From: Bacteroidota bacterium
Lineage (GTDB): Bacteria > Bacteroidota > Bacteroidia > UBA7662 > CANHCV01
NCBI GenBank assembly: GCA_947459245.1
Contig: CANHCV010000011.1
Span: 1-51,109, forward strand
Length of the DNA: 51,109 nt
Reading direction: 5' to 3'
The translations under genes were made by a program, and so were the position numbers. Below are positions 3,278 through 17,843 of this stretch, piece by piece. The notes under the pieces were generated by a model. That model searched no databases. It saw only the letters and a list, made by a program, of their open reading frames with translations, and was not told where the DNA came from. Positions within the stretch are counted from its first letter, which is position 1; each line of letters begins with the position of its first letter.

Positions 3278-4435
3278 TTAACGGGTTTTCTTCTCCGAGG
3301 TGGCTCCCATCAAAACCAGCAAAATCACCATGCTGGTGGCGTAATAGGCCGTTTCGGAGAAGATGCTCACGAACAATTGTGCGGCAAACAAACATTGGTA
3401 CAAGAGCTGATTTTTAGAAAGACGGAACAAATCCCACATCGTCCATCCCCAAATTAAAAAGCCAACTACGCCCAACTGCCCGATCACCATCCCCACAAAC
3501 GTATCTCCAATTCCTAAATCTACAGCAGTAGCATATCTTCCTACAATATTTCCAACCGAACCTAAACCGTGTCCGAAAACGGTGATGGTTCGGAACGAAT
3601 TTACCAATCCACCCAAGTGTGCTTGAATTCCCGGGTGAAAACTGGCTCCAGCAACAAGCCCAACGCCCATTCCGCCAATGGCGAAGGCCTTCATCCATCG
3701 CGGTAGGAGGCGCGTCCAGCCAATCATGGCTACGCCAAACTGCAATACCGCGCCTTTGCAAAACGTAAATCCAATGGCAACAACATACAACACCCTTCCC
3801 CACCAACCCAAGCGGGGTTGCTTCCAATCCATGGCGAACAACACCATCCAGAAATGACCCAAATTGATGGGATCCAACAAAACGCTGCTCATCCGGGGCA
3901 TTCCTCCCAAAATGGGCTCGTACATGAATTCAATCACACCCTCGTCGTTCAATTTGAGGTTTTTAGCTGCAACGAAAGGACCAATGTCCATCCAATTCCA
4001 AATCGGGAAGAGGTACAAAACAATGCCCAGTGCCATGAACCACCAACCTGCTTGGTAAAAAAACAGTTGAAGGCTAGCGTGGTCTTCTTCCTTCAACATC
4101 CAACGAGAAAACAACCACAACATCAAAGGGCTGATGAACTGACGGATGGATAGGATTTTGGGCGAAATTTCTGGAGTAGAAAACATCAAACTTCCCACTA
4201 AAAAAGCGCCAAAAACAAAGAAGGAAACGGGAATTTGGCCCATCCCACGAATGAAATTTTCTTTCCAGGTTTTGAGGGGAAAAAACAGAAAAATTCCAGG
4301 AATCCACATCCAAATGTCCCTAATAGAAGCCAATTTGGCCAAACCGGGGTGCAGCTGCGAAGCCATCAACACCAGCATGGGCCAAACCAAAAAAAATCCA
4401 ATACAAATGAAAAAATAGCGCAAGGGCCAAGTCAT
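3278..4435 (-). CDS. O-antigen ligase/polymerase-like membrane protein
   Basis: A 385-residue, very hydrophobic protein with about ten predicted membrane segments and a large loop around residues 160-190. The C-terminal half has the pattern typical of Wzy/WaaL-type proteins: FGHGLGS, then an IGDTF acidic element, then GQLGVVGFLIW. In that family the protein joins undecaprenyl-linked glycan units or transfers them to lipid A. The start codon lies 4 bp after the stop of the M1 aminopeptidase gene, so they are probably co-transcribed, although the functions look unrelated. No glycosyltransferase is adjacent, so the glycan is not identifiable. Sequence similarity in this family is weak, so another polytopic membrane function cannot be excluded. 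Confidence 0.6.
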   Translation of the reverse strand: MTWPLRYFFICIGFFLVWPMLVLMASQLHPGLAKLASIRDIWMWIPGIFLFFPLKTWKENFIRGMGQIPVSFFVFGAFLVGSLMFSTPEISPKILSIRQFISPLMLWLFSRWMLKEEDHASLQLFFYQAGWWFMALGIVLYLFPIWNWMDIGPFVAAKNLKLNDEGVIEFMYEPILGGMPRMSSVLLDPINLGHFWMVLFAMDWKQPRLGWWGRVLYVVAIGFTFCKGAVLQFGVAMIGWTRLLPRWMKAFAIGGMGVGLVAGASFHPGIQAHLGGLVNSFRTITVFGHGLGSVGNIVGRYATAVDLGIGDTFVGMVIGQLGVVGFLIWGWTMWDLFRLSKNQLLYQCLFAAQLFVSIFSETAYYATSMVILLVLMGATSEKKTR

Positions 4436-4439
4436 GTTC

Positions 4440-6374
4440 TCAATATTTTACGAGGGAGCGGGTCCACCTAAAATTCCCAAAAACGACTTCGAGAAAATAG
4501 TTGCCCGACTCAAAGTTACGCACATCTACCTCATGAATGGCTTTTGCTGATGGCCAAGTTTGCTGCAAAACCACCTGCCCAAGGGCATTGTACACCCGAA
4601 CTTGGCCCTCGCTGGAAGTGGGAGGAGCCCACGCAATTTCAAACCGATCCCGGGTAGGGTTGGGATAAACCACCGGAATATCCGAATAAACGGGCTCTAC
4701 CTTCAACGTGCGCTGAATGCTCGTAAAATCGGGATCGATCACGGCAGAAGCCACCGAAAAGGGAGCTAAAAACTCGAACGATTGATCGTTCTGCCGAATC
4801 CAAACAACCTGATCAACCGAGTCGGTTTTCGATTCGTTGTACCACCGCACTTTTAATTTTTGCTCAAAAAGCGAAACCGAAGGATGGGTGGTCGTTTGCA
4901 AAAATCGAGTCACCACCTTGCCACCCCGTTGCTGGTATTGAACCGAATACAAAGGCACACCCTGCCCGTACAACCAATCGTTGAAATAACCCTCCCAACT
5001 TTGTCCCGATGACCGATTCAAGTACCCTAGCAAATCGCTCGTTTTCGAAAAACTAAAACGCAGGGCCGGATCGTTGATGTAGTCCCTTAAGGCTCTAAAA
5101 AAAGCAGAATCACCCATTTCCCACCGTAACTGATGCAAAATCATCGCACCTTTGGAATAGGTTAGTCGACCATTGAAAATCCGACTCACCGAAGAAGTAT
5201 CTGGAACGAAAACGCTTCCGCTGTCCAATGCGCTCACCCTAGCCAGTTCTCCTTTTTTCCAAATGGGATACCAATAGCCGTTCAACAACCGCTCGTAACA
5301 CAACCCCGTAAGGTAACTGGCAAATCCTTCATTCAGCCAAATGTCGCTCCACGAAGCGCACGTCACCAAATCGCCAAACCATTGATGGGCCAATTCGTGG
5401 GAAATCAATCCAAACCCCATGTCCACTACGAAACTATTGGTTTGATGTTCCATGCCACCGCCTCTCCCCCACTGGGTGTGTCCGTGTTTCTCAGCATGGA
5501 AAGGATAGGGCCCAAATCGGTCCTCAAAAACATCGAAAAATCCCTGCAAATTTTCCAAACGCTGCTGGAAAAAAACAGTGTCCTCCGGGTAATAAAACGT
5601 TTCGTTCAACAATGGCCCTTGAGCTGTTCTCAACGTATCGCTTGCAATTTTATAGTTCGTTACCGCAATGGCGATCAGGTAAGGTGCTGTTTTATAATTG
5701 GTTTGGTAGATGAATTGAGATGTGGAGTCGGAACGATGCTCCTTCAACAGCAATAAACCGTTCGAAACCGCCGTTTGCGAATCGCCTCGGCTATTCATCG
5801 TTGGGCAAGTGATGTCGATGACTGTTGTGTCGGATTTGTACCCCAGCGTTTGAAACGCCGGCCACCAATCCCGAGCTCCGTACGGTTGAGAAAGGGTCCA
5901 TAAAATGGGTACAGAATCGTGAAGGGAGGTGATGTAGGAGCCAAATCCAGGGGTGTTCACCACGGTTCCGTGGTAATCGATTTGGACTTGGATGTTTCCC
6001 TGAACCGGTGCGGGCCACTCGATTTCCAGTTGATTTTGGCCGGTTCGGAAGGCCCGAATGGGAACTGAAGAAGCAACCCGATCGCAGGTTAAGGTGTCGT
6101 TCAAATCAACCCAAATTTTGGTGGTGGGTTGCAAAAGATTCAAGCGATACGCCACCGAACCAGAAACGTTCCGCGACTCGGGATTGACCCGAACCGAAAG
6201 CCGGGTATGCAGCAATTGGAAGGACTGATTCGTGGAAGATGAAACAGAAAACACTCCGGTTTTTTTACATTCATATTCTTTTTTGGAAATGTAATCGAAG
6301 TGCTGACTTCGGGTTGGAAGGCAGAAAAAGAAAACGAAACAGATGGAAACAAAGTGATTTAGCTGTAATTTCAT
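4440..6374 (-). CDS. Secreted M1-family metalloaminopeptidase with T9SS sorting domain
   Basis: A 644-residue protein starting MKLQLNHF; an in-frame upstream extension lacks a signal-peptide start and is rejected. A signal peptide occupies about residues 1-24. The zinc site is HELAHQW (about 326-332) with the second glutamate in NEGFASY (about 349). The substrate-recognition motif reads GGGMEHQT (about 305-312), in place of the classical GAMEN. The probable transition-state tyrosine lies in TYSKGA (about 406). The C-terminus (VYPNPTRDRFEI, GNYFLEVVFG) is a type-A T9SS sorting domain, so the enzyme acts outside the cell, probably trimming peptides from extracellular proteolysis. Its start codon is 50 bp from that of the divergent ahcY, and the two share an inverted repeat in their promoter region. 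Confidence 0.93.
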   Translation of the reverse strand: MKLQLNHFVSICFVFFFCLPTRSQHFDYISKKEYECKKTGVFSVSSSTNQSFQLLHTRLSVRVNPESRNVSGSVAYRLNLLQPTTKIWVDLNDTLTCDRVASSVPIRAFRTGQNQLEIEWPAPVQGNIQVQIDYHGTVVNTPGFGSYITSLHDSVPILWTLSQPYGARDWWPAFQTLGYKSDTTVIDITCPTMNSRGDSQTAVSNGLLLLKEHRSDSTSQFIYQTNYKTAPYLIAIAVTNYKIASDTLRTAQGPLLNETFYYPEDTVFFQQRLENLQGFFDVFEDRFGPYPFHAEKHGHTQWGRGGGMEHQTNSFVVDMGFGLISHELAHQWFGDLVTCASWSDIWLNEGFASYLTGLCYERLLNGYWYPIWKKGELARVSALDSGSVFVPDTSSVSRIFNGRLTYSKGAMILHQLRWEMGDSAFFRALRDYINDPALRFSFSKTSDLLGYLNRSSGQSWEGYFNDWLYGQGVPLYSVQYQQRGGKVVTRFLQTTTHPSVSLFEQKLKVRWYNESKTDSVDQVVWIRQNDQSFEFLAPFSVASAVIDPDFTSIQRTLKVEPVYSDIPVVYPNPTRDRFEIAWAPPTSSEGQVRVYNALGQVVLQQTWPSAKAIHEVDVRNFESGNYFLEVVFGNFRWTRSLVKY

Positions 6375-6380
6375 GACGAA

Positions 6381-6408
6381 TTGCAAGGTAAATGTTTTAC
6401 CTTTGCAA
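6381..6408. repeat. Near-perfect inverted repeat between divergent genes
   Basis: The arms TTGCAAGGTAAA (6381-6392) and TTTACCTTTGCAA (6396-6408) are reverse complements except for one extra T, with a 3-bp spacer. The right arm contains the -7 element of ahcY and the left arm a near copy facing the M1 peptidase gene. It may be a symmetric divergent promoter or a regulator site. Confidence 0.7.
6398..6405 (+). promoter_or_regulatory. Putative -7 promoter element of ahcY
   Basis: TACCTTTG matches the Bacteroidota consensus TAnnTTTG and ends 19 bp before the ahcY start codon. No convincing -33 TTTG element was found at the expected spacing. Confidence 0.6.
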
Positions 6409-6424
6409 ACCAAAAATAGTAAAA

Positions 6425-7720
6425 ATGATGAATTACAAGGTAAAAGACATCAGCTTAGCCGATTGGGGCCGAAAAGAAATTCAATTGGCTGAGGCAGAAA
6501 TGCCCGGATTGATGGCTCTACGTGAGCAATATGGACAAACCAAACCGTTGGCTGGTGCCCGCATCGCCGGTTGTTTGCACATGACCATTCAAACCGCCGT
6601 TCTAATCGAAACATTGATCGAATTGGGAGCTGAGGTAACTTGGTCTTCCTGCAACATCTTTTCAACCCAAGATCACGCTGCTGCTGCTATCGCTGCCGCT
6701 GGAATTCCGGTTTTTGCTTGGAAAGGCATGAACGAAGAAGAATTCGATTGGTGCATCGAACAAACCTTGCACGCATTCAAAGATGGTCAGCCGTTGAACA
6801 TGATTCTTGATGACGGAGGCGATTTGACCAACATGGTGTTGGATCGTTACCCAGAATTGGTTGAAGCGATTCGTGGAATTTCTGAAGAAACCACAACGGG
6901 CGTTTTGCGTTTGTACCAACGCATGCAAAAAGGAACCCTTCCACTTCCTGCCATCAACATCAACGATTCCGTTACCAAATCCAAATTCGATAACAAATAC
7001 GGTTGCCGTGAGTCTGCAGTAGATGCGGTTCGTCGCGCTACCGACGTGATGATGGCCGGTAAAGTTGCCGTTGTTGCGGGTTACGGAGACGTAGGTAAAG
7101 GAACTGCAGAATCGCTTCGCGGAGCTGGTGCTCGTGTTATCGTTACCGAAATCGATCCGATCTGCGCACTACAAGCGGCCATGGACGGTTTCGAAGTAAA
7201 GAAAATGAAGAATGCCATTCCTCGTGCGAACATCGTGATCACCGCAACCGGTAACCGCGATATCGTAACTGGAGAGCATTTCAAAATGATGAACGACAAA
7301 ACCATCGTTTGTAACATCGGTCACTTCGATAACGAAATCGATATGGCTTGGTTGAACGATACTCACGGAAACACCAAATACACCGTTAAACCTCAGGTAG
7401 ATGTTTACAACGTAGATGGAAATGAAATCATCGTTTTGGCAGAAGGTCGTTTGGTAAACCTTGGTTGCGCAACCGGTCACCCATCCTTCGTGATGTCGAA
7501 CTCCTTCACCAACCAAACGTTGGCTCAATTGGAGTTGTGGACCAACCACGGCAAGTACGAAAACCAAGTTTACGTTCTTCCAAAACATTTGGATGAAATG
7601 GTAGCTCGCCTTCACTTGTCGAAAATTGGCGTTGAATTGGAAGAGTTGACCAACGGTCAAGCCGATTACATCAACGTACCTCAAAACGGACCGTTCAAAT
7701 CTGAAACGTACCGTTATTGA
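6425..7720 (+). CDS. ahcY: Adenosylhomocysteinase
   Basis: A 431-residue enzyme that splits S-adenosylhomocysteine into adenosine and homocysteine, relieving product inhibition of methyltransferases in the activated methyl cycle. It acts in the cytoplasm as an NAD-dependent multimer. Visible marks: the N-terminal substrate-binding half with [16 protein letters not shown]; the Rossmann motif in [17 protein letters not shown]; the GHFDNEID element; and the conserved C-terminus ending KSETYRY. The start is the first of two consecutive ATGs; the longer frame reaching 6392 runs through the promoter and is rejected. It stands alone as a transcription unit, with a TAnnTTTG element upstream and a perfect hairpin terminator downstream. 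Length and motifs are normal. Confidence 0.98.
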
Positions 7721-7773: not shown

Positions 7774-8118
7774 TCAATGCTTTTCATCTTCGTGAGGCTT
7801 TTTGCAACAAGCCGGAAGTGCCTCGAATCCCTTGGGATCGGCTAAAACATCATCGGCTTGATATCCCAACAAAGAAATTTTCTTTTTTAAGGTGGCTCGA
7901 TCCGTTTTATCGGTTCGGTATTTCAGAATGATTTTCTTTTCTTCCACCAAAACAGTAACCCGAATCACCCCTTTTTCAAACTTCAATCCCTCTTCCAAAA
8001 TACTTTTGCAAGTACCGCAAACGGTTGATGTGGCAATGGTGTCGGTAACGACTTTGTTTTGCGCTTTGATTTCTTGAATTCCAAATAGAACCAAGAAAGC
8101 GAGGATAATTTTTTTCAT
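7774..8118 (-). CDS. Exported heavy-metal-associated (HMA-like) CxxC protein
   Basis: A 114-residue protein with a signal peptide (about 1-19, ending EIKAQ). The mature part looks like an HMA ferredoxin-like fold: the metal loop TSTVCGTCKS carries C34 and C37 in a CxxC arrangement, followed by a beta-alpha-beta pattern ending in LGYQADD. The C-terminus adds a CC pair (C104, C105) and a His/Glu-rich end (PHEDEKH), which could form a second metal site. HMA domains bind Cu(I), Zn or similar soft ions. Export implies a periplasmic or outer-membrane role. Its start codon lies 1 bp after the stop of the TonB-dependent receptor gene, so the two are an operon. The metal bound cannot be told from the sequence. 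Confidence 0.82.
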   Translation of the reverse strand: MKKIILAFLVLFGIQEIKAQNKVVTDTIATSTVCGTCKSILEEGLKFEKGVIRVTVLVEEKKIILKYRTDKTDRATLKKKISLLGYQADDVLADPKGFEALPACCKKPHEDEKH

Positions 8119-8119
8119 G

Positions 8120-10303
8120 TTACTTGATTTTATAACGCATTCCTAAATAAATGTTTCTGCCCATGATGGGCCCCCAAACCATGGCGGCATCAAACCCGGG
8201 ACCGATGGGTGCCCCAACAATGGGATGGTGCTGACGAAAGTTTAAAGCATTTTCTATGCCAAGGTACCAATCGGCATGCTTGAATTTTTTCGTTACTTGG
8301 CCATTCACCAAAAAGAATCCTGGGCTGTAGCCCAAAGTTGTTTGGGGTAAATTGTAATAAGAAGGGAGTCGTTTTCTACCCGTATGGGTAACGGTGGCAT
8401 CAGCCAGCCATTTCCCATTATTGCTTTCCCATCCAACGTTGGCCAAAAAACGGTGCTGTTCCACCAACGGTCTAATTTTTGTTCCTCCCGAAAAGCCCGA
8501 TCGGGGGTCATCGTATTTATACGCCAAGCGGAGGGTGGTTCCTTCCAAAACTTCACCATTCAATTCCGCTTGAAAACTCTTCGAAAAGGAAGGCGATTTC
8601 TGATTGTACATGCGCAGCGTACCGCTTTCTTCTACATCTACCATCCATTGGTTTTGGAAATGGGTTTCGTAATAATCCAAGGTCAGTACCCATTCCCGTC
8701 CGAACCAATCCATCATTTTGATGAAGCTTCCTCCTACAATTTGCGAGCGTTCGGCTTGGGGCGCTTCCTCAACCATCCATTGCCGCCCCGAAGCAAAGAA
8801 ACCGATGTTTTCTACCAAGGCATTCACGGTGCGGAAACCGGTTCCATACGACAGTTTAACGATGTTGTTTTCGGTAACATTCCACTTCAGGTTGAAACGA
8901 GGAGTGAGGAAACCGCCGTACAAATTGTGCCGATCGGCCCGAAGTCCAACGATCAAATCAATGGGTAAATTTTGTGGCTTTTCATGCCATTCGGCAAAAA
9001 TTCCGGGTACGTGCTCGGTCCTATTCCAACTCGAATCCCGGAATTTCTCATCGAACTGATCCCACAAATAACTGGCCCCCATCTTGATTTGATGCCGGGT
9101 ATCTTTCCAAATGGTTTGGTACAAAAAAGAGTATTGCAAATTTTTCTCCTTCCCTTGGTACTCGTTCCACCCCAACATGGAATGCTGGTTGTGAAGTCCG
9201 GAGGACAAAATGTTTCCGATGCTTTTGTAGGGTTTTCCCGGGAATAAGATCCCAAACTTGGCCCAAGCGTACAACCGCTCGGTGTGGTGATTGATGAAAT
9301 ATTGAGGAACAATGGGGATCACACCCTCGGGCAACGGAACTTCTCCGCCGTTTCTGCCTTCCCTCAAGTACTTGATTCCAATTTGACTCTCGGCGCGTTT
9401 TCCTTGCCAATGCCAGCGGTTGTACACGTTCACGTTGTTGATGAGCGGTTGATCCAGAAAACCGTCGTGGTTCATGTCCCAACGCACGTGCTCTTGCTGG
9501 GTATGCGCAGCCAACAATCCGTGCCAGGCCTTGTTTACTTTCCCGGCAACGTGGGCGGTGAGTTCCGAACGCCCTTGAGACGATTGGTAGGCCGACATGG
9601 AGAACTTCTCGGCTTCCCGAGGTTTGAGCAATTCCACGTTCATTTGGCCGGTAAAAGCTTCATATCCTTGAGCCACCGAACCGGCGCCTTTCAAGATTTG
9701 AATGGACTCCATCCAGTGGCCGGGAACGTATTGAATGCCGTATGCTTGTCCTAACCCCCGGAATTCGGAGGTGTTTTCGGTGAGCAACTGAACGTACTTC
9801 CCGTCCAAGCCCAACATTTTGATGCGGCGGGCGCCGGTCAAGGCGTCGGAAAGGGAAACGTCTACGGCCGCCGATGTTTCGAAACTTTCGCTGAGGTTAC
9901 AGCAGGCGGCCTTTTGCAACTCTCGGGTAGTAATGGTTTGAACGGCACGAGAATCCAAGGTACTGATTTCGGTGGAACGTCGTTTGCGACCAATGTTTGC
10001 GCCTTGCAATTCCACCGGCGCCGGATTCAGTTGCATGGAAATTCCTTTTTGTTGGTGAGTAACCACCAAGGAATCGGGCAGAAAGCCGAGGTGAGTAAAG
10101 TACAGCGTGATTAACGTGTCGGATGATTTGATTTTGAATCGACCTTGGGCATCGGAAAGGGCGTATTCCTTTTCTCCGAACCGAACAACGGCTCCCGAGA
10201 TGGGCTCTTGTGAGACTTTATTGGATATTTTTCCGAACCACAGGTATTGGGCTTGAGCGGAAAAAAAGCCCATTGCAAAAAGAATGGCAACAAATTTCTT
10301 CAT
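8120..10303 (-). CDS. TonB-dependent outer-membrane receptor of a probable metal cluster
   Basis: A 727-residue protein with signal peptide (ends SAQAQ), an N-terminal carboxypeptidase-regulatory-like beta domain (about 22-95, ISGAVVRFGEKEYALSDAQGRF), a plug domain (about 110-230) and a 22-strand-type barrel ending in the aromatic-containing segment NIYLGMRYKIK. The plug carries a CC pair, C134-C135, in AACCNLSESFETS. TonB-dependent receptors import ligands too large or scarce for porins, using proton-motive force. It lies between a Cys-rich exported protein upstream (50 bp) and an HMA-like protein downstream (1 bp), which suggests a metal or metallophore substrate. No SusD partner is present, arguing against glycan uptake. 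Receptor identity is firm; substrate is inferred from context only. Confidence 0.9.
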   Translation of the reverse strand: MKKFVAILFAMGFFSAQAQYLWFGKISNKVSQEPISGAVVRFGEKEYALSDAQGRFKIKSSDTLITLYFTHLGFLPDSLVVTHQQKGISMQLNPAPVELQGANIGRKRRSTEISTLDSRAVQTITTRELQKAACCNLSESFETSAAVDVSLSDALTGARRIKMLGLDGKYVQLLTENTSEFRGLGQAYGIQYVPGHWMESIQILKGAGSVAQGYEAFTGQMNVELLKPREAEKFSMSAYQSSQGRSELTAHVAGKVNKAWHGLLAAHTQQEHVRWDMNHDGFLDQPLINNVNVYNRWHWQGKRAESQIGIKYLREGRNGGEVPLPEGVIPIVPQYFINHHTERLYAWAKFGILFPGKPYKSIGNILSSGLHNQHSMLGWNEYQGKEKNLQYSFLYQTIWKDTRHQIKMGASYLWDQFDEKFRDSSWNRTEHVPGIFAEWHEKPQNLPIDLIVGLRADRHNLYGGFLTPRFNLKWNVTENNIVKLSYGTGFRTVNALVENIGFFASGRQWMVEEAPQAERSQIVGGSFIKMMDWFGREWVLTLDYYETHFQNQWMVDVEESGTLRMYNQKSPSFSKSFQAELNGEVLEGTTLRLAYKYDDPRSGFSGGTKIRPLVEQHRFLANVGWESNNGKWLADATVTHTGRKRLPSYYNLPQTTLGYSPGFFLVNGQVTKKFKHADWYLGIENALNFRQHHPIVGAPIGPGFDAAMVWGPIMGRNIYLGMRYKIK

Positions 10304-10353
10304 TTTTTTGGGTGTTTATGTTCAACAAATTTTCGATCGAAAATGGGTTGAAC

Positions 10354-10782
10354 TCAACAGCGCCAAATGGAAAAATCGATTCCCACAAAACGGTGGGAAG
10401 AATGGGTTGAAAAGCTGACGATTTTCCTGGACGAACACGGGACTCGCTCGGGAATTTTGATGGAGGTTGGAAGAAGTAGTTGAAGCGCCCGGTTGAATGC
10501 AAAAATAACCAAGTCGTTGGGCGCTTTTCCGTGAGGATGCAAGAGCGGTTTTTCCGATTTCTCTACCGATTTCTCTTGAAAAAAGGCAGCCTTTTCCTCG
10601 AATTTTTTGAGAATTACCGATTCTTTGTCGCTACAGCACGCATCCGCCTCATCTTCCATTGATGCACAACAGTTGGAACTTTCGGCTTGCATGGCCTTGC
10701 AACAACAATCGATCACGGCAGCGGGAACGGCTGTAGCGAAAAGAAAGGAGAAGAGTAAGGCTATGGAAATGAGTTGCTTCAC
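10354..10782 (-). CDS. Small exported Cys-rich protein of the metal cluster
   Basis: A 142-residue protein beginning with a GTG codon at 10780-10782; no ATG lies in a position that would preserve the signal peptide (about 1-22). The mature N-terminus has three cysteine clusters within 25 residues: C26-C28, C38-C39 and C49-C50, separated by acidic residues. A helical stretch, then a weakly conserved C-terminus ending in Cys follow. It resembles the small Cys-rich proteins encoded beside TonB receptors in Bacteroidota (the HYC_CC_PP-type group), but lacks the HYC motif, so membership is tentative. The cysteine clusters suggest soft-metal binding. It is the first gene of the cluster and would be expressed with the receptor and the HMA-like protein. 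Confidence 0.7.
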   Translation of the reverse strand: MKQLISIALLFSFLFATAVPAAVIDCCCKAMQAESSNCCASMEDEADACCSDKESVILKKFEEKAAFFQEKSVEKSEKPLLHPHGKAPNDLVIFAFNRALQLLLPTSIKIPERVPCSSRKIVSFSTHSSHRFVGIDFSIWRC

Positions 10783-15072: not shown

Positions 15073-15867
15073 TCAACCCAACAGCCGCTTTAGCGGAATT
15101 TGGAAATAAATGTACCCGTAAATGGCCCACGGGTGAACCATGCATCTTACCTTCCACATGGCCATTTTTGGCGATTTTTCCACCCAATCGATGGGTGGCA
15201 CCTCCGATCGGTCGTTAATTTTTCCGGCTTTCAACTCATTAACTAGCGTTCCTGCAATTTTATAATCGCCATCCAGCCACCCCAACGTTCTCAAGTAGGA
15301 GGCGTGTTTCAGGTGCTTCAATCCCAATTTATGCAACCGATATCCCACTTTCTGTTGAACGTCTTTTCTCCATTGAAAAAATTCGTGGATGGACGTCATG
15401 GAATGATCGGTGTAAATCTTAAATCCGTTTTCTTCCATCCAGTGGTGGAATTTTGCCTCCGGTCGGGGAACATCTGCCCAATTGGAGGCCATTTCTAAAT
15501 ATTTTGCCAGCAAATGAGTTCGGTAAAAATGAATGCCGCCCTCCCTTCCGGCTAGGTGAAATTTATCCAAAGTGTAGGTGTTCACCAAAAAGGTTTCGGG
15601 TGTTGCACGTTCCAAAATGCTTTGAAGTTTGGCCAAACTGTTCGGTGAAACCAAAACATCCGCATCCACCAAGGCCGTGTATTTTTTACCCGTTGCCACT
15701 GCCAATTCTACTGATTTTCGGGAAGCAACATTGAACGGAGAAACCCCTTCTACCAATCCGGCAATTTTGCCAACTTGTTCCTCCAGCAGTTGGATGCAAA
15801 CGGAAGTTGTTCGTTCGCCCGATGCTCGAACAACCACGGCAATATCGTTCATCGGTTTATTCCTCAT
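15073..15867 (-). CDS. Glycosyltransferase-like protein (GT-A fold)
   Basis: A 264-residue protein (259 if the internal start MNDIAVVV at 15850-15852 is used). Residues about 6-110 look like a GT-A nucleotide-sugar domain: IAVVVRASGERTT opening strand, then a DxD-like element VDADVLVSP (about 68-76). The C-terminal half is helical and basic, without a clear membrane segment. Genes of this kind add sugars to envelope glycans, but donor and acceptor are unknown. It overlaps the end of the potassium channel gene by 11 bp if the first start is right, or lies 4 bp downstream for the second; either way they form an operon. Family placement is moderate. Confidence 0.68.
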   Translation of the reverse strand: MRNKPMNDIAVVVRASGERTTSVCIQLLEEQVGKIAGLVEGVSPFNVASRKSVELAVATGKKYTALVDADVLVSPNSLAKLQSILERATPETFLVNTYTLDKFHLAGREGGIHFYRTHLLAKYLEMASNWADVPRPEAKFHHWMEENGFKIYTDHSMTSIHEFFQWRKDVQQKVGYRLHKLGLKHLKHASYLRTLGWLDGDYKIAGTLVNELKAGKINDRSEVPPIDWVEKSPKMAMWKVRCMVHPWAIYGYIYFQIPLKRLLG

Positions 15868-16795
15868 CGTGAATTTCTATTTCGGAAATTCGATCGGGAT
15901 AGAAAATGACGTTCCCGTCTTCATCGGTTCGGTACGAAGGAACAAAGGAAGCGTGATGCACAATTTCACCGCAAACGTAGGAAGTTTTAGCTTGAATCAT
16001 TTGGTGGTAGGAATCGTCGAAACCCTTGATGTAAACCATGATTTCTGCATCCATTTGCGCCAGGTCTTCCTTGGTTTTTTGGTAAAGTGGACTTTGTTCG
16101 GTAATCACATGAACCAAGGTCCAATTCAAGGGCATGAAGTTAATTTTCTGCAATTCCAATTTCAAAACATGAAATTGTTGGCGGTAGTACTTTTTTTCTT
16201 TGGTGCTAAATTTAATGATCACGGATGCTTCCAAATCGGTCAGAACATTTTTCCTGCCGTTGGCGATTTTCACCATGAATGCATCGTTTTGTTGGTATTT
16301 TCCGATGATGGCTTTTTCTGAAAACAAGAATTTGGCCCTTGGTTTCGAAAAACGTCCGTACAACAAACCGGTGGCCAAAGCGAAGGTTAAAATGCCCGAT
16401 AGCGCCTCGATGCCAGCAAGTGCTGAAGCCCAGTGATCGGTGGGCGCAACAGAACCGTATCCAACTGTAGTAATGGTTTGAAGGCCAAAGAAATAAACAT
16501 CCCAAAAAAAGTCCCAACCTTGGTGGTTCCCAACCCCTTGAAATGCCGAAGGACCCAACAGATAATACCCAAAACTAAAGAGCAAATTGATCCCGAAATA
16601 AAATCCGAAAATGAGGGATAAAAACGAAAAAATGGGCATGTTTACCAATTGATGGAAGATCCCATCCTCCGAAAAGATTTCTCCTTTCCGAACGATGTTG
16701 AAACTCCCATCCGGATTGATGTTCCGTTTGGTTCGGTGCGAAACTTCGGTAAATAAACCGGTATCGCTTCCTTTTTCAAATCCTCGATGGCTCAT
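15857..16795 (-). CDS. Inward-rectifier (Kir/KirBac-type) potassium channel
   Basis: A 312-residue inner-membrane channel. Two membrane segments (about 56-80 and 125-150) flank a pore helix and the selectivity filter TITTVGYGS (about 110-118). An N-terminal amphipathic slide-helix region contains IVRKGEIFSEDGIFHQLVNM. The C-terminal 155 residues are the cytoplasmic beta-sandwich that gates Kir channels, opening with FSKPRAKFLFSEKAI. In the family it conducts potassium and is modulated by lipids and ligands. Filter, helix order and C-terminal domain are all intact. It is transcribed divergently from the SCO gene, and its downstream partner is a glycosyltransferase. Confidence 0.95.
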   Translation of the reverse strand: MSHRGFEKGSDTGLFTEVSHRTKRNINPDGSFNIVRKGEIFSEDGIFHQLVNMPIFSFLSLIFGFYFGINLLFSFGYYLLGPSAFQGVGNHQGWDFFWDVYFFGLQTITTVGYGSVAPTDHWASALAGIEALSGILTFALATGLLYGRFSKPRAKFLFSEKAIIGKYQQNDAFMVKIANGRKNVLTDLEASVIIKFSTKEKKYYRQQFHVLKLELQKINFMPLNWTLVHVITEQSPLYQKTKEDLAQMDAEIMVYIKGFDDSYHQMIQAKTSYVCGEIVHHASFVPSYRTDEDGNVIFYPDRISEIEIHDEE

Positions 16796-16842: not shown

Positions 16843-17451
16843 ATGAAACACCTCATTTTTCTTCCATTTCTTGCAATTTTTATTGCCTGCGAATCTCCAA
16901 AACAGAAACTGCCTTACTTGGGAAATCCCGAGAAAGTTGTTGGAACAGATACCATTTATCCGAGCATTCCCAATTTTTCATTTCTCAACCAAGAAGGAAA
17001 GACCATTCAAGGAACGGATGTTCAAGGCAAGGTGTACGTGGCCGAGTTTTTCTTCACCTCTTGCCCCAGCATTTGTCCAAAAATGTTGAAGCAGATGAAG
17101 CGGGTTAGCGAAAAATTTGGAGATCGGGAAGATTTTCGAATCCTTTCTTTTTCCATCGATCCCATCCGCGATTCGGTAGCTACCTTGGCCGAATACGGAA
17201 AGCGGGCTAAAATAGATCCGAAGCATTGGTGGATGTTAACCGGAAACGAAGATTCCATTTATCAGTTGGGAGAAAATCATTTCATGAGTCACATGGTGGC
17301 AGATGAAAACGAGCCCGGCGGATACGTGCACAGCGGATTTTTCATTTTGGTGGACCGGCAGGGTCGCAAGCGTGGCGCTTACGATGGAACCGATCCCAAA
17401 GACGTGGATCGATTGATGAAGGAGCTTCCTCTTTTATTGGAAGAGCAATGA
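16843..17451 (+). CDS. SCO-family copper chaperone/thiol protein (lipoprotein)
   Basis: A 202-residue protein with a lipobox around C16 (IFIACESP), so it is likely a periplasm-facing lipoprotein. The thioredoxin-like domain carries the copper/thiol motif CPSICPK (C74 and C78) and the partner histidine H163 in YVHSGFFILVD, all three family ligands being present. SCO proteins deliver copper to, or reduce cysteines of, the CuA site of haem-copper oxidases. Its stop codon overlaps the start of a cytochrome c gene (ATGA), supporting a role in respiratory electron transport. No oxidase genes are in the window. Confidence 0.94.
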   Translation: MKHLIFLPFLAIFIACESPKQKLPYLGNPEKVVGTDTIYPSIPNFSFLNQEGKTIQGTDVQGKVYVAEFFFTSCPSICPKMLKQMKRVSEKFGDREDFRILSFSIDPIRDSVATLAEYGKRAKIDPKHWWMLTGNEDSIYQLGENHFMSHMVADENEPGGYVHSGFFILVDRQGRKRGAYDGTDPKDVDRLMKELPLLLEEQ

Positions 17452-17843
17452 AAAAGCTGTTCTTTTTCCTTCCAGTTGTCCTTTTGGCCTGTACCATGGG
17501 ATCGGAAAAAGAGTTAGCCGTGGCCAACGGATTGCGCATTTATCAGCAGCATTGCATGGCTTGCCACGGTGAAAAAGGAGAAGGGAACGGATTGCTGTAT
17601 CCACCACTTCAAAAAAGCGATTACCTGTTGGCCGACTCTGTGCGTACCCTTCAACACATTGTGCTGGGAATGAGTGGGCCCATTCAAGTGAATGGCGTAG
17701 GTTACAACGGAATCATGCCCTCTGAGCCCACTTTAACGGACGTAGAGTTGGGGTATTTGATGACCTATTTGTACAATTCTTGGGGAAGAGATGGCGGGCA
17801 TTTTACCTCGGAGTGGATCAGCAAGAATAAGCCAATTAAGTGA
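17448..17843 (+). CDS. Lipoprotein c-type cytochrome
   Basis: A 131-residue protein with a lipobox at C15 (VVLLACTMG). The haem c attachment motif is CMACHG (C36, C39, H40), and M90 in NGIMPSEP is the probable second axial ligand. The size fits a single-haem class I cytochrome, anchored to the membrane and carrying electrons in the periplasm. It is translationally coupled to the SCO gene. Its last 8 bp overlap the 3' end of the converging waaA gene. Confidence 0.93.
   Translation: MKKLFFFLPVVLLACTMGSEKELAVANGLRIYQQHCMACHGEKGEGNGLLYPPLQKSDYLLADSVRTLQHIVLGMSGPIQVNGVGYNGIMPSEPTLTDVELGYLMTYLYNSWGRDGGHFTSEWISKNKPIK

Follow-up and report, generated by a model that had tools for sequence, protein, structure and literature searches.

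What is the function of a TonB-dependent receptor whose gene lies between those for a small Cys-rich protein and an HMA domain protein? The question arises from positions 7774-10782 of contig CANHCV010000011.1 (GenBank assembly GCA_947459245.1), a stretch of 51,109 nucleotides from a Bacteroidota bacterium, the whole of which is referred to here as the window. A first-pass annotation, made from the letters alone, had described a cluster of three genes with unusual Cys pairs in all three envelope products, and had suggested a dedicated import or relay of copper or a similar metal. Outside the Proteobacteria, little is known about how copper passes the outer membrane and what becomes of it in the periplasm. 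The reading that we prefer, with a probability of about 60 %, is that the cluster is an operon dedicated to the handling of copper at the outer membrane, and that it has a leader switch of its own.

All three open reading frames (ORFs) were found as described, on the minus strand and in the order small protein, receptor, HMA-like protein. The intergenic gaps are only 50 bp and 1 bp, respectively, and the trio is a tight operon. The small protein, P0003 (10354-10782, 142 aa, GTG start), is probably exported, and an RNA hairpin (10320-10353, minus strand) begins right after its stop codon. The receptor, P0002 (8120-10303), has 727 aa, and the exported-looking HMA protein, P0001 (7774-8118), has 114 aa. 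The Cys pairs had also been placed correctly, namely C26-C28, C38-C39 and C49-C50 in P0003, which has two further Cys (116 and 142), C134-C135 (codons at 9899-9904, minus strand) as the only Cys in the receptor, and C34/C37 (CxxC) and C104-C105 (CC) in P0001. An envelope location for all three products is probable, given their hydrophobic N-termini and the receptor fold. In the congeneric genome L196 all three genes are kept, with 89-92 % identity; in L197 the contig breaks off within the receptor gene, and P0003 and the N-terminal 604 residues of the receptor are retained. P0003 is 90-92 % identical in the two, and its Cys pairs are retained.

When 296 genomes were searched for the receptor, the matches fell into two distinct score groups, orthologues (>230 bits) and other receptors (<170 bits). 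The flanks were compared in 75 of the 76 orthologue genomes besides that of the window (G146, in which the gene is split, was excluded), with the 34 best-scoring TonB receptors of the lower group as controls. A small Cys-rich ORF lies upstream of 60/75 orthologues and 0/34 controls (Fisher 8e-17), and an HMA domain is adjacent (48) or fused (9) to the receptor, together in 56/75 orthologues and 1/34 controls (Fisher 2e-13). At least one of the two was found in 71/75 and 1/34, respectively. A scan of named genomes gave at least 590 confirmed relatives, from which the best 80 were kept as named loci, retrieved by a pattern that contains the plug Cys-Cys pair; here, the small ORF is present in 69/80 and an HMA domain in 66/80. 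Loci L196-L213 were left out of every count. The receptor was also found on four plasmid records. Three were opened, and two have a hypothetical protein, the receptor and an HMA protein in that order, while a CusA gene lies close by in the third. The trio is strongly co-conserved in the Bacteroidota. The first-pass annotation had proposed a search for the same trio across this phylum and had named a lack of co-conservation as grounds for giving up its reading; the reading comes through this comparison intact.

The receptor scores above cut-off for both domains of a TonB-dependent receptor, the barrel (PF00593, 61.6 bits) and the plug (PF07715, 26.3 bits). Its AlphaFold2 model has the usual fold, with a predicted local distance difference test (pLDDT) score of 85.4, and the nearest solved fold is BtuB, with a template modelling (TM) score of 0.82 by target. 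The plug Cys-Cys pair is present in 75/75 orthologues that were not selected for it and in 155/155 overall, a number that includes the 80 retrieved with the CC-containing pattern. A profile alignment to CirA, the colicin I receptor, puts the pair beside the first helix of the plug, where CirA has Val-Gln. The loop that carries it is modelled with low confidence (block mean 62), and the predicted model of an HMA-receptor fusion is likewise unreliable around it. From the general anatomy of TonB receptors, we take the pair to face the periplasm.

P0001 reaches the HMA cut-off (PF00403, 25.2 bits against 24.8), has the CxxC motif and is the sole HMA match in the window's genome. Copper ATPases make up 6/8 of its solved-structure matches. 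The MerP and CopZ models scored far below their cut-offs (27.1 against 92.55 bits and 25.8 against 91 bits), and P0001 was assigned to neither. In 15/155 orthologues the HMA domain is fused to the N-terminus of the receptor, in some with two HMA copies. On the tree, the fused state needs five state changes, where shuffled labels need 12 or more, and the fused form has thus been gained or lost several times. These fusions make a receptor-to-HMA hand-over likely, and favour a dedicated metal hand-over, in line with the first-pass annotation. We think it quite probable that the HMA protein works directly with the receptor, and transfer from the plug CC to the HMA CxxC in the periplasm is the most economical reading. 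A short regulator of the AraC type, whose N-terminal part has the motif MVCxRC, lies behind the receptor at several loci (L011, L055, L057, L068, L078, L082 and others), sometimes in place of the HMA protein.

The small protein had been likened to uncharacterised families found beside TonB receptors, and its positional relatives do belong to one, as 48 of the 60 unselected upstream proteins match the NCBI family NF047658 (HYC_CC_PP) at an E-value of 0.001. The family architecture is a signal-like start, CC pairs and, some 57 residues on and near the C-terminus, a Pro-Pro (PP) motif. Conserved columns are few among 129 positional homologues, namely HxC (104 proteins), two CC pairs (CC in 126) and PP (106), with PP within the last 45 residues in 106/129 (shuffled mean 35, maximum 47). 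The distance from the last CC to PP has a median of 57 residues and is nearly always 53-61, though the spacer sequence is unconserved; the HxC-PP distance is variable (60-130 residues). P0003 itself gave no match in Pfam and none to NF047658 at an E-value of 1 (28-bit cut-off), and its assignment to a named family was rejected; NF047658 had no match anywhere in the window's genome. Against a profile of the 129 homologues it scored 24.1 bits (E 3.1e-5), over the N-terminal half only. The window copy is a divergent outlier among the HYC_CC_PP relatives. Features of CruR/CutF-like leaders (Cys and a C-terminal Pro motif at fixed spacing, in a protein encoded first in the operon) are all found in the relatives; P0003 shares just two of them, its Cys pairs and its position.

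The hairpin in the window (10353-10320) has a folding energy of -12.2 kcal/mol (z -4.07), and 0/200 shuffled sequences were equally stable. Its stem is retained in both congeners and the loop has changed. For comparison, 84 gaps of 15-130 bp behind leaders were folded, together with control gaps taken from these loci (150 of 276), gene starts being called mechanically (first ATG, GTG or TTG) in both sets. The leader gaps have a mean z of -2.6, with 54 below -2, and the control gaps a mean of -0.8, with 34 below -2. At least five base pairs link the first 15 nt from the stop codon with the final 45 nt ahead of the start in 73/84 leader gaps but only 54/150 controls, the entire stop codon is paired in 36/84 as opposed to 10/150, and the 3' arm ends a median of 7 nt ahead of the called start. 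In an alignment of seven gap sequences covariation was weak (one compensated pair, with 147/500 shuffles as good), and an arm-swap test was therefore used. Own arms pair at -9.3 kcal/mol and swapped arms at -5.0 kcal/mol, and the own arm was among the best 5 % in 38/72 cases (35 distinct arms), compared with 17/166 for controls. As the 5' arms pair much better with their own 3' arms than with those of other loci, the hairpin arms show compensated change in bulk. For gaps between a leader and an HMA gene the signal was weaker, with a mean z of -1.8 over 19 gaps, of which 10 lie below -2. An Rfam search gave no match, and simple promoter and terminator scans found no excess over shuffles. At 10399-10380 (minus strand), inside the coding tail of P0003, there is a hairpin that resembles a terminator and has a T tail; such sites are not above the shuffle level. 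An excess of C over G in the leader tail (79/86 loci) was not used as evidence, since it has no small-ORF control.

Is the small protein then a component of the pathway, as the first-pass annotation had it, or a regulator of it? Among the 296 genomes, NF047658 was found in 90, the receptor in 77 and both in 53 (Fisher 1.5e-16), and the family is thus present without the receptor in 37 genomes. Twenty non-receptor places were hand-picked from the high-scoring part of the NF047658 list, and a CusA-like gene follows the leader in 17/20, which is not an unbiased rate; four of these genes were scanned against NCBIfam and 4/4 exceeded the CusA/CzcA cut-off. Stop-anchored pairing was found in 17/17 of the CusA-like gaps (mean z -4.1, 15 below -2). 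A structural partner of the receptor is not expected ahead of CusA-like genes and a copper-responsive leader is, which disfavours the former. The family heads CusA-like efflux genes too, and there, as in front of receptors, the hairpin is anchored at the stop codon. The small protein is therefore more likely a leader regulator than a relay part, and we regard a mainly cis-acting role as probable. A leader common to receptor and efflux pump also means that control at the receptor may have either sign; with a like response at both, the receptor would be induced by copper. Other genes were also seen behind leaders at loci L219-L238, namely one for an AraC regulator with an HMA-like start and one for a heavy-metal-binding-type protein.

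In the window's own genome (L239; G000:C83), a 128-aa His-rich export-like ORF (3910-4296, plus strand) precedes a CusA/CzcA-type pump (4341-7445, plus strand). The ORF ends in RRGPPVG and thus has RGPP near its stop codon, at which a hairpin is anchored. Leaders of this general kind may therefore exist in the lineage of the window.

The first-pass annotation had named copper or a similar metal, and the neighbourhoods agree with this, being copper-type (CopA, CusA, HMA regulators and YHS proteins). The recurrent same-strand neighbours in the best 80 named loci comprise AraC regulators with an HMA-like start (10 loci), HMA-MauE membrane proteins (7), CopA-like ATPases (6, of which two are weak matches and one of these two lies on the opposite strand) and YHS proteins (4). 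We consider a copper-type metal very likely. Import is a reasonable expectation, held somewhat less firmly; of the proposal of dedicated import rather than efflux, the dedicated hand-over is favoured, and the direction is less secure because the leader family also precedes an efflux pump.

The window's genome encodes a single COX1, a single SCO1 and a CusA/CzcA pump. No P1B heavy-metal ATPase was found in it by a search that matched 14/14 control genomes. A heme-copper oxidase without CopA/CcoI is unusual, and the genome content fits a cell that keeps its copper in the periplasm. COX1 is present in 285/296 genomes, so that co-occurrence of the receptor with heme-copper oxidases does not discriminate. 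Six kb from the trio, the window has a gene for an SCO1-type chaperone (16843-17451, plus strand), followed by one for a cytochrome c (17448-17843, plus strand). At 15857-16795 (minus strand) is a gene for an inward-rectifier-type potassium channel, with IRK_C and ion channel domains. No expression data for the trio genes were found in the open-access literature.

In the copper-handling operon that we propose, the receptor would take in copper, free or chelated, in a TonB-dependent manner, and the invariant plug Cys-Cys pair would serve as the exit ligand. The HMA protein, which would be free in the periplasm here and is fused to the receptor in other species, would accept Cu(I) from the plug via its CxxC and pass it on in the periplasm. 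Control would be exerted by the exported nascent small protein, whose Cys pairs would sense periplasmic copper and alter the passage of the ribosome through the C-terminal segment, which contains PP in most relatives. Whether or not a ribosome reaches the stop codon would then decide the opening of the hairpin ahead of the next start codon; it is at this step that we infer ribosome stalling. A broader form of this proposal treats the HYC_CC_PP leaders as a portable copper switch within the Bacteroidota, with Cys pairs about 57 residues before PP that read periplasmic copper and the stop-codon region as one arm of a masking hairpin. The same switch would then drive copper efflux pumps as well as a TonB receptor from which copper passes to an HMA domain, in some cases on the same polypeptide. 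This we advance tentatively, at slightly less than even odds.

Several observations weigh against the proposed operon. P0003 lacks HxC/HYC and PP and does not match NF047658, though the CC pairs and the hairpin are kept, and in the window the stop codon is unpaired and 16 nt separate the end of the hairpin from the receptor start. In the family, PP is followed by about 15 residues and its context is not RAPP, unlike in CruR. MerP is the top-scoring named model for P0001, though far under its cut-off. SCO1 was rejected as a conserved neighbour, as it is absent near the receptor in the best 80 named loci, and no COX1 match was obtained in G238, one of the receptor genomes, which indicates that supply of heme-copper oxidase is not the sole use of the receptor. 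Finally, a leader shared with an efflux pump suggests copper induction, a poor fit for an importer.

This last point leads to the alternative that the operon serves copper defence, with leader, receptor and HMA protein induced by copper along with the CusA pump, and the receptor and HMA protein binding, sequestering or removing copper rather than feeding enzymes. The presence of the same leader family and hairpin before CusA-like genes, and of CopA-like ATPases nearby in 6/80 of the best named loci, would be accounted for. However, TonB receptors of known function are established importers, and the window's genome keeps the trio without a P1B efflux ATPase. Sharing a leader type also need not mean sharing a response, because CruR and CutF, which are related leaders, can act with opposite signs according to the parts of the two reports used here (PMC9426467, PMC9973294). 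We consider defence unlikely. A physical relay of all three proteins, in which the small protein is a periplasmic or outer-membrane metal-binding subunit, would explain its conserved Cys pairs, its export-like N-terminus and its strong linkage to the receptor (an NF047658 match in 53/77 receptor genomes). It would not explain why the family occurs in 37 genomes without the receptor and heads an unrelated pump, why an unconserved spacer has a nearly fixed length, or why a compensated hairpin lies at the stop codon of the small protein, and we judge it improbable.

Import of a different ligand by the receptor (mercury, silver, zinc or a metallophore), the Cys pairs being redox-active or structural, appears very improbable to us. 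HMA domains do bind several soft metals, and MerP and MerTP models top the weak NCBIfam list for P0001, but mer-type genes were not recognised among the recurrent neighbours (by eye and with ten Pfam scans), the neighbours include CusA, CopA and YHS, and the solved-structure matches of the HMA protein are mostly copper ATPases (6/8). If the copper-handling operon is as we propose, Bacteroidota have an outer-membrane route reserved for copper, in some species with a carrier that is covalently tethered, a named but unexplained family gains a function, and a metal-sensing leader becomes recognisable from sequence.

Relative to known systems, the receptor-HMA fusion, the plug CC and the stop-anchored hairpin were not found described in the open-access literature, and no paper was found that uses the term HYC_CC_PP. 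The family name carries no attached function; 48/60 unselected upstream proteins belong to it and P0003 does not. The OprC-type copper receptors are alike in being TonB-dependent receptors proposed for copper, but the plug CC of P0002 (C134 C135 N L S E) has no Met at +4 and hence lacks the CxxxM motif given for them in the part of PMC11213822 used here, and P0002 was not assigned to this type. P0001 shares the HMA fold and CxxC with the CopZ/MerP-type metallochaperones, but is exported-looking, has an extra C-terminal CC and is far below the model cut-offs.

The closest precedents are two copper leaders. The CruR-CrtA(BfrG)-PepSY operon of Bordetella has an exported Cys leader, a TonB copper transporter and a periplasm-facing partner in the same order (PMC9426467, PMC12914433). 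In CruR, which controls the TonB transporter, CXXC and RAPP are 45 residues apart, fixed within one or two (PMC9426467), and arrest by CruR has been shown in vitro (PMC12992588). A Cys motif and a C-terminal PP at fixed spacing are thus common to both, with a median of 57 residues here. Unlike CruR and CutF, the leaders described here show no detectable homology to DUF2946, a candidate that was rejected when its profile (PF11162) matched 0/60 relatives at an E-value of 0.1 and none of the proteins in the window's genome. Their PP is not in RAPP and lies about 15 residues from the end, and a short gap with a hairpin takes the place of the 162-bp gap with Rho termination in Bordetella. CrtA is described as having no conserved Cys and has a PepSY partner (PMC12914433), whereas the receptor here has an invariant CC and an HMA partner and was not assigned to that group. 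CutF, of the CutF-CutO system of Rhodobacter, is likewise a Sec-exported nascent chain with a Cys motif 45 residues before a C-terminal Pro motif, and acts with an mRNA stem-loop ahead of the next gene (PMC9973294). Here, the 5' arm of the hairpin is the leader's own stop-codon region, and the next gene encodes a receptor, not a multicopper oxidase. The lists of CutF-like proteins include Bacteroidota, with TonB and CusA among the neighbours, and may already contain some HYC_CC_PP proteins (PMC9973294). RGPP is an arrest motif, and RAPP/RGPP leaders of copper genes are reported, in the part of that paper used here, as not found in Bacteroidota (PMC12992588), a gap that a different PP leader would fill. 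The ingredients of the proposed operon therefore have precedents in copper leaders (CruR and CutF), copper TonB transporters (CrtA and OprC) and HMA carriers.

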